From: Elusimicrobiaceae bacterium
GTDB lineage: Bacteria; Elusimicrobiota; Elusimicrobia; Elusimicrobiales; Elusimicrobiaceae
DNA length: 46,717 nucleotides
NCBI GenBank assembly: GCA_017646765.1
Contig: JAGCMD010000028.1
Location: 1-46,717 of the forward strand
Direction of reading: 5' to 3'
The position numbers were made by a program, and so were the translations under genes. Of the stretch, positions 28,006 to 40,103 are shown in pieces. A model generated the notes under the pieces. It searched no databases and was not told where the DNA came from. It saw only the letters and a list, made by a program, of their open reading frames with translations. How positions within the stretch are numbered: position 1 is the stretch's first letter; each line of letters begins with the position of its first letter.

Positions 28006-28037
28006 TAAAAAACGCCTCTTAATTAAGAGGCGTTTTT
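28006..28037. terminator. Bidirectional terminator after ribF
   Basis: The hairpin is perfectly palindromic: AACGCCTCTT and AAGAGGCGTT around AATT, with A-rich and T-rich flanks on either side. It can end both the rbfA operon (+) and the pseudoprotease operon (-). Confidence 0.9.
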
Positions 28038-28057: not shown

Positions 28058-29011
28058 TTATTTGAAAGACTCATCAACGCTGTCGTAAAATAAGCGCGGT
28101 TGAATTTCTGCCCAATCTTGCGGGCGGTTTTCCAAAACGGTTTGTTTGATAAATTCCAAGTCCGCTTTGGTTAAACGGTACCATGTATCGGATTTTTTCC
28201 CACACCAAACTCTTGCTCCGTCGGCACACGTTTTATAGTCCATCAGGCCGTTGTTGTATCCGATTAAATACTCATCTCCCGATTCAATGGACAAAAACGC
28301 CGGGTCGGAAGCCGTACCGGATAGATCATAAAAACTTTCATCTAACAGGAACAGATTGCCGGAGCCTTGCATAGACTCTTCCAAGAAATCGCGCTCGCGC
28401 ACGGCATTTAATCCCAAGCGAGCCGTATTGATTTGTAACGAGCCGCGGGCATTCCACAACGAGAATAATTTGTCTTTAGAGGACATCGCCAATACTTTTA
28501 CAAAAGGAGCCGTGTATTCCGCTTTTTTTTGCCAAAGCAGCATGACGTTGTTGTTATATTCAATTTTCATGCCTTTTTGGTCGGAGCCATAGGGGAAAAG
28601 CTCGTGCTCTACGACTTCTTGCTTATTGCTGGTTAGCCACATATCGGCTTCTTTGTCGCTAACGCCCATCGGCGCCGCGCACCGGCCCGATAAGATTAAC
28701 CAATTCGGGTGTAAAGCATACGCTTTACAACCTAAATCGTACCGGTGGGAAAGGTATTCCTTTTCCTGTGTGCCGGCAAAAGAATATTCAATGACTTCTC
28801 TTACCCGAAATTCAATGGTTTTGTTTTGTTCTATGGAGCCAACACTGGAGTTGAGCATTTTATCCAATACGGCGCGGTCTACTTGGTAAGCGATTTGTTT
28901 TTGAGCCGCGGTATCTTGTTGGTTTATGTTGTATATATTTTTCTTCCATTGGGCATAGGCGCTGTTTGCTACCAACGCACATAAGCCGATTACTGCTAAC
29001 ATCTTTTTCAT
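28058..29011 (-). CDS. Secreted trypsin-fold pseudoprotease (paralogue 1)
   Basis: 317 residues with a signal peptide (1-20, ending AYA-QW). I do not know the family by name. C95 and C111 are 16 residues apart, the exact C42-C58 spacing of trypsin, and the segment WLILSGRC matches the trypsin strand that ends in Ala-Ala-His-Cys, with R110 in place of the catalytic His. The segment SGTASDPAF near 231-239, followed by YLIGYNNG, matches the serine-loop region, with Ala in place of the catalytic Ser. The Asp position (NNNVMLLW) also lacks Asp. The protein is therefore probably non-catalytic. It is co-transcribed with the next paralogue (37-nt gap, GGAG ribosome site). Confidence 0.65.
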   Translation of the reverse strand: MKKMLAVIGLCALVANSAYAQWKKNIYNINQQDTAAQKQIAYQVDRAVLDKMLNSSVGSIEQNKTIEFRVREVIEYSFAGTQEKEYLSHRYDLGCKAYALHPNWLILSGRCAAPMGVSDKEADMWLTSNKQEVVEHELFPYGSDQKGMKIEYNNNVMLLWQKKAEYTAPFVKVLAMSSKDKLFSLWNARGSLQINTARLGLNAVRERDFLEESMQGSGNLFLLDESFYDLSGTASDPAFLSIESGDEYLIGYNNGLMDYKTCADGARVWCGKKSDTWYRLTKADLEFIKQTVLENRPQDWAEIQPRLFYDSVDESFK

Positions 29012-29048
29012 ACGTTCTTTCTCCTTATTTTTTATATTTAGAAATTAT

Positions 29049-29951
29049 TTATTGGTTTTGCGTTTCGTTAAAGTGTGACTCGTCCGCAATTTGCGGGCTA
29101 ATTTGCGCAAACGATTGTTTGGCCATATTACGGCGCAAAAACTCTACCGTTCCGGCCGAGAAGAAGGCAAACCGATTGCCGGAACGAGGCGATTGTATAT
29201 CGGGCTCGGTTACATTAAAACCGATTAAAAATTCTTGTTGGTCTTGTGTTACCCCGAAGACCGGGTCGCCCGTTTGTGCGTCTACCCATTTCCAATTTAC
29301 CAAGAACACGCCTTCGGGCAAATTCACTTCCGACATTTGGGCCGCGTGAACCATCCGGCCTTCTTGACTGAAATAATAGCGGTGATTGACTAGCGGCTGC
29401 GGGAAAATATTTTTTAATTCTTGCGGATGTTTCGGCACAAATAAATTCGCTATAGGTAGCGGGCCGATTTGTTCTACCATGGGTTTATTGTGGTTTTCCC
29501 ACCGGATCAGAATAACGCGGGCATCTCTATTGGTATAAATGGCTTCTTGGGGGATGGTAAAATGGGCGGGCTCCACCACCACGGACATAACCTCGCGGCT
29601 GATTACGTTTAATTCTCTTATGGCCGGGCCTTCCGGCTCGTTTACAAAACGCCAGACGGTTTTTTCCAGCCCCACGCACGCCATAGAGGCCAGTAAATAC
29701 TGGTCGGCGATGCGCACCGCAGTACACGATTTTTCCAGCGTTTGAGGGGTTGCGTCGGGCGAGTCCAACAGTTCGCGCACTTTAAAAGTAACAGGCACTA
29801 CGCTTTGTTCATGCGCGGTTTGTAAACTTGCATTTTCGGCAACGGCGGACAAAACAGCTTTTCTAACTGCTTGTGATAAATCGGGTGAAACCCCGTAAGC
29901 CCAGGATATTTGGGCTACGCATACGAGTAGTATAATTGTAATTTTTTTCAT
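29049..29951 (-). CDS. Secreted trypsin-fold pseudoprotease (paralogue 2)
   Basis: 300 residues from the ATG at 29951, chosen because it opens a signal peptide (MKKITIILLV..., cut near YG-V) and has AGAAGG 10 nt upstream. The frame is open further upstream without signal-like sequence. C76 and C92 keep the 16-residue trypsin spacing, with A91 where the catalytic His would be. The Asp-region strand DARVILIRW keeps D143. The serine loop reads DAQTGDPVF, with T227 in the catalytic position, followed by FLIGFN. Like its downstream paralogue it looks inactive. Both share a C-terminal helix plus acidic tail. A role in binding rather than cleavage is likely. Confidence 0.65.
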   Translation of the reverse strand: MKKITIILLVCVAQISWAYGVSPDLSQAVRKAVLSAVAENASLQTAHEQSVVPVTFKVRELLDSPDATPQTLEKSCTAVRIADQYLLASMACVGLEKTVWRFVNEPEGPAIRELNVISREVMSVVVEPAHFTIPQEAIYTNRDARVILIRWENHNKPMVEQIGPLPIANLFVPKHPQELKNIFPQPLVNHRYYFSQEGRMVHAAQMSEVNLPEGVFLVNWKWVDAQTGDPVFGVTQDQQEFLIGFNVTEPDIQSPRSGNRFAFFSAGTVEFLRRNMAKQSFAQISPQIADESHFNETQNQ

Positions 29952-30036: not shown

Positions 30037-30056
30037 TTATCCCGGCCAGCCGGCAT

Positions 30057-31208
30057 TTATTGGTATATTAAAGCGCGGAACTGCGAGGTTTGGTTTAAGC
30101 CTTTAAACATCCAGCCCTTCTTATCTTCTTTATACAGCGACTCTATATCTTTAAAATTTCGTTTTAAAGCGTTGTCTAAATTGGCATATGCTTTGTTGCG
30201 GTCTTTCTTGCTTAGCCAATACCAACCGGCCAAATTGATATAAGGGGTCGGCGCGGAATTATCCAAGGAGATAGCCGTTTCCAAATCTTTTTTGGCACCG
30301 TCCCAATTTTTCAAATGTATCCGCACAAACCCGCGGTTGTTAAACGGTATTGCCCATTTGGGGTTGAGTTCTATTGCTTTTGTATAGTCGTCCTGTGCGT
30401 TGGCAAATTGTCCGAGTTCTTCGTATACAATGCCGCGCCGGTTATAAAAGAGCGCGTCGGGTTGTAGGGCCAATAGCGTAGTATAATCGGCCAAGGCAGC
30501 TTCTAAATCGCCCATTTCTTTAAACGCGTTGGCCCGGTAGCGATACGCCGCAGAGAAGGTGGTATCCCGGTTAATAGATTTACTAAAGCAGGAAACCGCC
30601 TCATCCAGTTCGTTGCGTCCAAAGAATATGCGTCCGCGCCAATAATGGCCGGGGGCACTGTCTGCCCGGGACGATTTATCCAGTAGCCGCAAGGCTTTAT
30701 CGTACCGGTAGGCTCCGATGTAAGCGGGCATCATTTCCATAATCATTTTATCGTCGGCGGGCGGGCGACTTTGTTCGTAATCGGCAACGGCTTGTTCGTG
30801 TTTTCCCAAATGCAAGTAAACTTGTGCGCGGGCCCGATAAAAATTTTTATAAGACGGTTTTAATGAAATGGCTTCGTTTAAGTCCGCCAGTGCCAAGGAC
30901 CAATGTTGCGTATCCATATAATCTAATGCACGGGCGTAGTAACGGAAAGCGTCTTTAGGGCGGAGTTTTATGGTGCGGGAATAGTCTTCCACGGCCTGCT
31001 TGTGTTTGCCCAAACGGCGGTACGCGTCTGCCCGGTAGTGGTAAGCATCTGCCAAATTGGGCGATTTCTCCACCGCTTGTGTTAAGAGTTTGATTTGGAC
31101 TTGCGGGTCAGTTTCTGCCTTAGCTTTGGCCAGCAACGCCGTAGCGCGTTGGCCCCAAACGCTGGCCGCGCATATACATAAAAGTAACGTAAAACCTATC
31201 TTGCGCAT
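30057..31208 (-). CDS. Secreted TPR-repeat protein
   Basis: 383 residues. A signal peptide (1-19, ending VWG-QR) is followed by about nine tetratricopeptide repeats over residues 20-345 (for example ADAYHYRADAYRRLGKHKQAV, LFYNRRGIVYEELGQFANAQ, AIPFNNRGFVRIHLKNWDGAK). TPR solenoids are protein-binding scaffolds, and here the location would be the periplasm or the outer-membrane inner face. The ATG has no Shine-Dalgarno sequence. An exact TATAAT ends 7 nt upstream, with TTGGGT 18 nt further as a -35, so the mRNA is probably leaderless and monocistronic. The partner is not evident. Confidence 0.85.
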   Translation of the reverse strand: MRKIGFTLLLCICAASVWGQRATALLAKAKAETDPQVQIKLLTQAVEKSPNLADAYHYRADAYRRLGKHKQAVEDYSRTIKLRPKDAFRYYARALDYMDTQHWSLALADLNEAISLKPSYKNFYRARAQVYLHLGKHEQAVADYEQSRPPADDKMIMEMMPAYIGAYRYDKALRLLDKSSRADSAPGHYWRGRIFFGRNELDEAVSCFSKSINRDTTFSAAYRYRANAFKEMGDLEAALADYTTLLALQPDALFYNRRGIVYEELGQFANAQDDYTKAIELNPKWAIPFNNRGFVRIHLKNWDGAKKDLETAISLDNSAPTPYINLAGWYWLSKKDRNKAYANLDNALKRNFKDIESLYKEDKKGWMFKGLNQTSQFRALIYQ

Positions 31209-31215
31209 ATATTAA

Positions 31216-31245
31216 ATTATAGTAAACTACCAACGAATTACCCAA
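31216..31245 (-). promoter_or_regulatory. Promoter of the TPR gene, leaderless start
   Basis: TTGGGT (31245-31240), an 18-nt spacer and TATAAT (31221-31216) are followed by TTAATAT and the ATG. It overlaps the 3' end of the upstream membrane-protein gene. Confidence 0.65.
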
Positions 31246-31958
31246 ATAATATTTAGTAACAAAAAGAGAAGTCCCATTAAGTAAAGCACCCCTAAAATAA
31301 GCGTAGTGAAAAGGCGCAAGTTGAGCAGTACCGCCCCGACGAGGGTGGCTTTCCCGGCGAAAATTTTACTTACTTTTACGGTGGTGCCGGCCAATTTTAC
31401 GATGCGGGCCGTTAATACCGCGCGTACGGCCAACATCAACGCACCTAATCCTACAAAGGCAATCCAGCGAGGCATGGAACCTCGTTGGGCGGATTGAAAA
31501 ACTTCTTTAACACTGCCGCGCACTAAAATTTTGGCTTGGTCCTTTGCTATACCTTCTTGTAAAGTATCTAAATGGGAAACCATTTTTTCTTGCACGCTAT
31601 CTATGGTGTTGTCAATAAACTCATCCCACTCCACGCATGCTTGCCGCAACGCACACACGCCGGCGGTGAGTAACGCGTAACCTAAAAAGAAAATCCCATA
31701 CCCGCTTAGAAAAAGTACCGCCAATATGTTTTTAAGTAGTTCCGGCAGCGCGGAGGGGTTCCATACAAATCGGTAAGCTAAAAAAGAGAGTAATATAAAA
31801 GCGGCCAAGCAGGCGGCCAGGTGCGGTAGAAATGTTTTTTGTAGGACGCTAATTAAGGTTCTTAGCCCTTGTTGCAAGGCCGAGAAAGCCGGCTTTTCCT
31901 GATTGGGGGCTGGGCTTAATTTAATGGGATGTACTACTTGATTAGGCTTAGTGTTCAT
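31227..31958 (-). CDS. Polytopic inner-membrane protein of unknown function
   Basis: 243 residues from the ATG at 31958. The frame is open to a TTG at 32003, but that region is fully used by a coupled small gene in another frame, and the sequence ATGAACACTAA joins the two. It has two hydrophobic helices at about 45-64 and 72-98, an acidic, helical soluble segment (about 100-155, with EWDEFIDNTIDSVQEKM), and two or three more helices (about 162-182 and 200-240). I do not recognise the family. Coupling to a Cys/His-rich mini-protein may hint at metal-linked or redox regulation, but that is speculation. Confidence 0.7.
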   Translation of the reverse strand: MNTKPNQVVHPIKLSPAPNQEKPAFSALQQGLRTLISVLQKTFLPHLAACLAAFILLSFLAYRFVWNPSALPELLKNILAVLFLSGYGIFFLGYALLTAGVCALRQACVEWDEFIDNTIDSVQEKMVSHLDTLQEGIAKDQAKILVRGSVKEVFQSAQRGSMPRWIAFVGLGALMLAVRAVLTARIVKLAGTTVKVSKIFAGKATLVGAVLLNLRLFTTLILGVLYLMGLLFLLLNIIWVIRW

Positions 31959-32094
31959 GGCCAACGCAATGGCCGCAGCAACCGTTGCAAACATGCTTGG
32001 CAAGTTTATTTACGGAAGGGACCCGGTCAGACACTTTGACCATTTTGCCTAATTTTTTATCGTACACATACGTACCGGTAGCATTTTCGGACAT
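31948..32094 (-). CDS. 48-residue Cys/His-rich mini-protein
   Basis: Reading from the ATG at 32094 gives a 48-residue protein. The first part has the ordered-looking segment TYVYDKKLGKMVKVSDRVPSV. The tail CNGCCGHCVGHEH has four Cys and three His residues in 13 positions and should bind a metal such as zinc, copper or iron. It has no signal peptide, so it is probably cytoplasmic. The start lies 6 nt after an extended -10 box (TGCTATAAT), which implies a leaderless mRNA. Its stop codon overlaps the start of the downstream membrane-protein gene. The conserved-looking body, the exact promoter and the coupling argue that it is a real gene despite its size. Confidence 0.7.
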   Translation of the reverse strand: MSENATGTYVYDKKLGKMVKVSDRVPSVNKLAKHVCNGCCGHCVGHEH

Positions 32095-39308: not shown

Positions 39309-40103
39309 TTAAGCCCTAGGGCCAGGTAGGTCTTTAGACCCAGAACGATTAAACAGGCGTTTTAATATTTCCCATGATTTTTTAACGTGGCGCACAAAGG
39401 CATTTTCTGTCTCCTTGGGCGTGGCGGCCAAGAGCGCTTGTTGCTCCTCAGCCGATAACGGCAAGCGATACCCGGCGGCCGTTACTAATTGGCGCAGGTA
39501 ATCGGACGGAACGGAAAAATTTAAGTTTTGGTTGTTTTCACCGGGATAACTGGCAAAAGCAACGGAAATAACTTTACCGTCCCGGTTAAAAACGGGACTG
39601 CCGCTGGAGCTGGGGGAAATCGGTGCGCTGATTTGGTGCCAAATGACGCCGTTGGCTTTGCGGCGTACTTGGCTGATCAGACCGGAAGAAACTGTGTTTT
39701 GCAACCGCCGCGGGTTGCCGATAACGGTAATGCTTTCGCCGGGTTGTACGCCGGCGGAAGAGGTAACTTCTACCGTAGGCAAATTTTGGGCCTCTATTTT
39801 AAGTAAAGCCAGGTCTACATTTTCCGCATTGGCAACAATTTTTGCCTCACCGGAAACCTTGCCGTCGTTAAATGTGATATTGATAAAAAGGGAGTGGTCG
39901 CTTACGTGGCGGCTGGTAGCAATAAGGCCGTCCGGCGTGAGCACAAAGCCCGTCCCGGTGAAAGTAGAGCCGTCATCTTTTAAAACATTGATAGCTACAA
40001 CCGCCGGGGCGTTTTCCCGCACGATACGTATCCGTGAGGTTTCTGCCCACGCGGCTAACGCTAAATACACCAACGCTACGGCTACCATTAACTTCTTAAG
40101 CAT
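39309..40103 (-). CDS. HtrA-like trypsin-fold serine protease, no PDZ domain
   Basis: 264 residues. A signal peptide (1-20, ending AWA-ET) is followed by a S1C-type protease domain with the full triad: H66 in ATSRHV, D97 in DLALLKI and S167 in SSSGSPVF. The domain ends near 215. No PDZ domain follows, only a basic amphipathic tail. Classic DegP has one or two PDZ domains, so substrate control must differ. It is therefore probably a periplasmic quality-control or regulatory protease. The ATG has no Shine-Dalgarno sequence, and TATAAT ends 6 nt upstream (leaderless). It is divergent from greA. Confidence 0.87.
   Translation of the reverse strand: MLKKLMVAVALVYLALAAWAETSRIRIVRENAPAVVAINVLKDDGSTFTGTGFVLTPDGLIATSRHVSDHSLFINITFNDGKVSGEAKIVANAENVDLALLKIEAQNLPTVEVTSSAGVQPGESITVIGNPRRLQNTVSSGLISQVRRKANGVIWHQISAPISPSSSGSPVFNRDGKVISVAFASYPGENNQNLNFSVPSDYLRQLVTAAGYRLPLSAEEQQALLAATPKETENAFVRHVKKSWEILKRLFNRSGSKDLPGPRA

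Follow-up and report, generated by a model that had tools for sequence, protein, structure and literature searches.

Animals have well-known trypsin-type pseudoproteases, and those of vertebrates have a separate, eukaryotic origin. In bacteria, the examples found in the literature are MamO and its magnetotactic counterparts. MamO is a trypsin-like protein with a degenerate triad and a C-terminal transporter domain; in magnetosome formation it binds metal by way of a di-His motif on its surface, and it fulfils noncatalytic roles beside active relatives (PMC4794232). The Chp/Pat-1 proteins of Clavibacter form another bacterial family predicted to be of S1 type, and are like the family described here in both respects (PMC11290698). 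No paper was found on pseudoproteases combined with the term Elusimicrobi, while among the matches listed for trypsin with the same term none concerned such proteins by title.

The genes A and B lie next to each other in a 46,717-nucleotide contig of an Elusimicrobiaceae bacterium, the whole of which is called the window. They are read here as encoding exported pseudoproteases that descend from S1 proteases, would have lost catalysis and would bind through the former cleft, a reading given a probability of roughly 0.72. The likeness to MamO lies in the bacterial, trypsin-like sequence with a degenerate triad and in the presence of active relatives. In contrast to MamO, the family of A and B has an S1A-like Cys42-Cys58 pair and a usual location beside groEL, and a search for a MamO-like His motif found no column with His in at least 70% of the rows and two with His in at least 30% (20 and 23 of 61).

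The gene pair and its probable operon

The features of the locus, with the HtrA-like gene that lies outside it, are as follows; the trypsin residue numbers in brackets are those that we take to correspond to the family positions (Cys42, Trp51, His57, Cys58, Asp102, Gly193 and Ser195).

28007..28037, no strand: palindrome bordered by runs of A and of T, in the interval that separates gene A from the convergent ribF, read by eye
28058..29011, minus strand: gene A, 317 aa, predicted exported S1-related pseudoprotease of the A clade (TxxDP loop); C95, W104, R110 (His57), C111, N155 (Asp102), G232 (Gly193), A234 (Ser195)
28679..28729, minus strand: Cys42-Cys58-like segment of A, C95 to C111, CKAYALHPNWLILSGRC, read from the ORF, conserved
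29049..29951, minus strand: gene B, 300 aa, predicted exported S1-related pseudoprotease of the B clade (xGDP loop); C76, Y85, A91 (His57), C92, R145 (Asp102), A225 (Gly193), T227 (Ser195)
29676..29726, minus strand: Cys42-Cys58-like segment of B, C76 to C92, CTAVRIADQYLLASMAC, read from the ORF, conserved
30057..31208, minus strand: TPR-repeat protein, directly upstream of B with a gap of 105 bp
31227..32003, minus strand: membrane protein with no family assigned, upstream of the TPR gene with a gap of 18 bp
39309..40103, minus strand: HtrA-like protease (Trypsin_2, E 4.1e-27), triad intact by reading, outside the locus

The longest open reading frame of B begins at 30056, and the ATG at 29951 was chosen as the one with a signal peptide after it. 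Both N-termini are typical export signals and signal-like N-termini are present in 62 of the 64 family members, in agreement with the secretion proposed in a sequence-only reading of the same DNA. That reading had also placed two inactive copies in one operon; A and B are indeed adjacent on one strand, 37 bp apart, and probably form one operon. On the minus strand the order is membrane protein, TPR gene, B and A, with gaps of 18, 105 and 37 bp. The TPR gene is a probable operon partner of B and A both in the window genome and in its sister G005, the MAG UBA1202 (L031), which is the nearest named relative found, and it adjoins a family gene in G024 too. The palindrome at 28007..28037 looks like a terminator at the end of the operon, common to ribF and A; a scan for consensus terminators did not list it.

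No Pfam or NCBIfam model fits A or B. A mobile element or a defence function was considered and set aside, B having no phage match and neither protein a PADLOC match. By eye, the membrane protein is similar to an open frame that lies downstream of groEL in G009 (L211:4261-4926), so the TPR and groEL neighbourhoods may share a history.

Family membership and kinship with S1 proteases

A and B were each searched against 90 genomes of their taxonomic family, and an iterated profile search of the loci then gave 64 members from either starting protein, mostly the same set. Direct BLASTP between A and B is weak (E 1e-4) and the profiles of their two clades match at E 1.1e-20, by which measure A and B are true paralogues. 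Across the phylum (340 genomes of 100 genera), matches at E<=1e-7 were found in 53 genomes of two genera, comprising 47 of the 66 genomes of the window's genus and six of another, the weakest of which may be other S1 relatives. The family is lineage-specific, consisting of two old clades and bearing no name in Pfam or NCBIfam.

The sequence-only reading had noted two Cys 16 residues apart in each protein (C95/C111 and C76/C92), and both pairs are present on the minus strand at those residues. It had held that a pair not conserved in homologues would count against a trypsin fold; both Cys are kept in all 62 relatives that reach the region (64 rows, two being fragments without it), at a spacing of 16 in 61 and 17 in one, so the pair in the window is not due to chance. 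The Trp51 position between them is Trp (43) or Tyr (17) in 60 of the 62. B-clade relatives often have further Cys at three columns of their C-terminal half (13, 17 and 18 of 21 rows), where B of the window has Val, Asn and Val (residues 201, 210 and 215).

Singly, neither A nor B matched a trypsin model in Pfam, NCBIfam or PDB. The single-protein PDB search with A returned repeat-propeller matches, the individual stretches of which were not significant, and one NADH dehydrogenase match (E 0.0018) that was taken as chance; the same search with B returned nothing. A profile of 61 members, from which three fragmentary or N-containing rows had been dropped, gave 212 PDB matches at E<=10, and the best 60 of these 212 were all S1 trypsin-type by name. 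The best was 1sgf (E 1.5e-4), and the alignment, which reaches the strand after Asp102, puts C95-W104-C111 on Cys42-Trp51-Cys58. Chain 1sgf_A, the alpha subunit of 7S NGF, was among the best PDB matches and is an inactive S1 fold used for binding, which we take to be a vertebrate S1 pseudoprotease. Individual relatives reach Pfam models in a few cases, with three of 61 matching Trypsin (best E 0.11) and four DUF1986 (best E 0.0035).

Comparison of the family with 14 intact S1 paralogues of the same taxonomic family by hhalign gave a probability of 98%. With signal peptides removed the score was 71.8; the highest of 60 column-shuffled controls was 23.3, and the reversed family scored 14.0. Most of this signal is carried by the N-terminal half, and the C-terminal half of the whole family alone was not significant (20.3). 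Taken by clade, the C-terminal half of the B clade scored 27.2 against the active paralogues (best of 40 controls 17.1), with its GDTGDPVF loop on their GNSGGGVF, while that of the A clade scored 14.1 and was not above controls (14.5).

Descent from S1 proteases is thus well supported by sequence comparison, and it is by this descent, through the profile similarity and the Cys42-Cys58 pair with Trp51 between, that A and B would belong to the S1 superfamily; neither matched HtrA or Trypsin_2 models, as a member of the HtrA/DegP group would. Of the earlier designation as trypsin-fold pseudoproteases, the kinship (by sequence profile) and the loss of catalytic residues stand, while a chymotrypsin-type fold of A and B can only be inferred because the AlphaFold models are uninformative at a mean pLDDT of 39.5 for A and 39.0 for B (four sequences each, covering A and B of the window and their L031 counterparts). 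These models, together with the marginal PDB matches of the separate clade profiles (for A the best S1 match at E 0.14; for B an unrelated cytokine receptor at E 0.085 on top, with S1 from E 0.39), leave room for a secreted, beta-rich family of other descent in which the Cys-Trp-Cys resemblance is coincidental. Such a fold is improbable given the family-level PDB search and the hhalign controls, and given that a second motif, GD[ST]GDPxF, follows in the correct order, some relatives even reading GDSGDP.

Loss of the triad beside intact paralogues

The sequence-only reading had the catalytic His replaced by Arg in A and Ala in B, and the Ser by Ala (TASDP) and Thr (QTGDP). Both replacements were borne out, the His57 position being the residue that precedes the second Cys and the Ser195 position lying three residues before the Pro of the serine loop (GTASDP in A, AQTGDP in B). 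With the Asp102 position added, which that reading had not given, the triad reads Arg, Asn and Ala in A and Ala, Arg and Thr in B. Its proposed survey of relatives for intact triads found all three residues in none of the 64 members and two of the three in one, with His57 kept in 1 of 62, Asp102 in 3 of 63 and Ser195 in 10 of 60. By residue identity, A and B would therefore be catalytically dead; they lack the residues of an active S1 peptidase and correspond to trypsin-type pseudoproteases, S1 homologues without catalytic residues.

Intact S1 paralogues occur in 84 of the 90 genomes of the taxonomic family, and the triad is complete in all 14 that were aligned, L166 included. The HtrA-like protease at 39309..40103, offered earlier as an intact local comparison, does keep His, Asp and Ser by reading and has relatives in 86 of the 90 genomes. 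Better comparators exist elsewhere in the window genome, namely three secreted S1 proteases with intact triads (L166:1293-2321, L233:1327-2319 and L232:901-2031), which with the HtrA-like gene make up the four S1-type genes of that genome that pass the Pfam Trypsin cut-off and likewise keep His, Asp and Ser by reading. These three are like A and B in having a signal peptide, a C-x-hydrophobic-W-C loop, a hydrophobic strand after Asp102 and a G-x-S-G loop, and differ in that their triad is intact, L232 and L233 having been read by eye. In a tree of 72 rows, seven intact rows were split from 65 inactive ones by a branch with support of 100/99, and A and B fell into two different inactive groups. 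Tandem duplication affects the active branch too, as intact S1 proteases stand side by side in pairs in the second genus (L181 and L175).

The number of intact proteases bears on the possibility that A and B regulate or serve as adaptors of S1 or HtrA proteases, presenting substrates or activating them, which is a special case of binding and rather doubtful. The four S1-type proteases of the window genome and the paralogues in 84 of the 90 genomes would provide partners, and MamO, which acts in such a way on MamE, is a precedent (PMC4794232). Against this, no active S1 gene is among the listed neighbours of the pseudoprotease loci, and active copies are retained in genomes that have no family match (G001, G008 and G048, for instance), so there is no co-occurrence signal.

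Some relatives in the B clade may, with a very small probability, have remade a Ser/Thr-Lys dyad on the trypsin scaffold, in which Lys102 would extend into the place vacated by His57 and serve as general base with Ser/Thr195. The 14 members with Lys102 have Ala57 in nine, Ser/Thr195 in 12 and Gly193 in 13, and a Fisher test of Lys102 against Ser/Thr195 gave p 3e-5, which ignores ancestry and is not proof. The pattern rests on few independent events. Gly193 is missing in all five members with Arg102 and a B-type loop, B of the window included, and as these form one branch the loss may be a single event. A and B of the window have no such dyad themselves, and B (Ala57, Arg102, Thr195, Ala193) would represent a branch that lost it again. 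No Ser-Lys dyad on a chymotrypsin fold was found in the literature searched.

Genomic home, selection and proposed role

Synteny was sampled in 54 arrays holding 70 selected family genes, with neighbours taken within 5 kb. In 40 of the 54 groEL lies upstream on the same strand and in 42 a Bax-inhibitor-1 gene (PF12811) lies downstream, with both in 34 and at least one in 48; the arrays hold one copy in 40 cases, two in 12 and three in two. The usual place of the family is thus between groEL and the Bax-inhibitor-1 gene, downstream of groES-groEL, and in the second genus relatives also lie downstream of groEL in G085, G072 and G075. The window genome and its sister G005 are exceptions, with the array by the TPR gene and both groEL and the Bax-inhibitor gene elsewhere. 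The two flanking genes share a contig in 45 genomes, and in 11 of these no family match lies in between; the slot is empty in G022 (175 bp) and G031 (107 bp), and other open frames occupy the eight further slots that were read, which are all of the remaining nine except G064.

In genomes without the family (loci L192-L200, L204 and L205) the slot is often occupied by other exported proteins, 177-371 aa long, the majority of which contain Cys pairs. Two groups of half-length secreted proteins from the slot were compared with the family and neither was counted as members. One scored below shuffled controls; the other was weakly above them in the N-terminal half (24.1 against 12.9) and may, on this weak sign, be a distant relative.

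Between the window and its sister genome B is 86% identical with a dN/dS of 0.125, compared with 95% for ribF and 93% for the TPR protein, and B is under purifying selection. For A the identity with the sister counterpart is only 54%, and no dN/dS is given since its synonymous sites are saturated. This divergence of A beside flanking genes at 93-95%, the 19 of 66 genus genomes without a match and the relatives that are fragments or carry in-frame stops could be taken as signs of decaying genes with no function left. Decay is most unlikely, as nearly every member retains its open reading frame, its export signal and the two Cys, B is constrained and the pseudo-active-site residues are conserved within clades.

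Conservation over 12-residue segments peaks, in both clades, in the former His loop and the former Ser loop. The replacement residues of the A clade are nearly fixed, with Thr at His57 in at least 90% of 26 rows, A of the window being unusual in its Arg. That these loops are the most conserved despite the replaced catalytic residues suggests that the cleft serves binding instead of cleavage. However, they are conserved for structural reasons in any S1 protease, so that conservation does not prove a binding site and structural need alone could explain it.

The conserved loops on a secreted trypsin-like protein would also suit decoys for serine-protease inhibitors of a host or of the environment, a trapping role raised in the sequence-only reading. 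Nothing found supports a decoy or inhibitor trap directly, the residues at His57, Asp102 and Ser195 vary between and within clades, Arg at His57 in A being one case, and a serpin trap requires a protease that cuts; a decoy is accordingly hard to credit.

For A and B as noncatalytic binding proteins, the proposal is that they descend from S1 proteases and lost the triad. The proteins would be exported and probably stabilised by a disulfide between the paired Cys, with the old substrate cleft kept as a putative binding site and the new clade-specific residues conserved. From the sequence comparisons we infer the loss of activity and binding through the former cleft. Candidates for the ligand are peptides, proteins of the envelope and clients of the intact proteases (S1 or HtrA).

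For a family without a name in Pfam or NCBIfam, A, B and their relatives provide sequences, neighbours and active comparators. As a secreted family without a complete triad, with clade-specific replacements and a home beside groEL, they would offer a natural series of scaffold repurposing.
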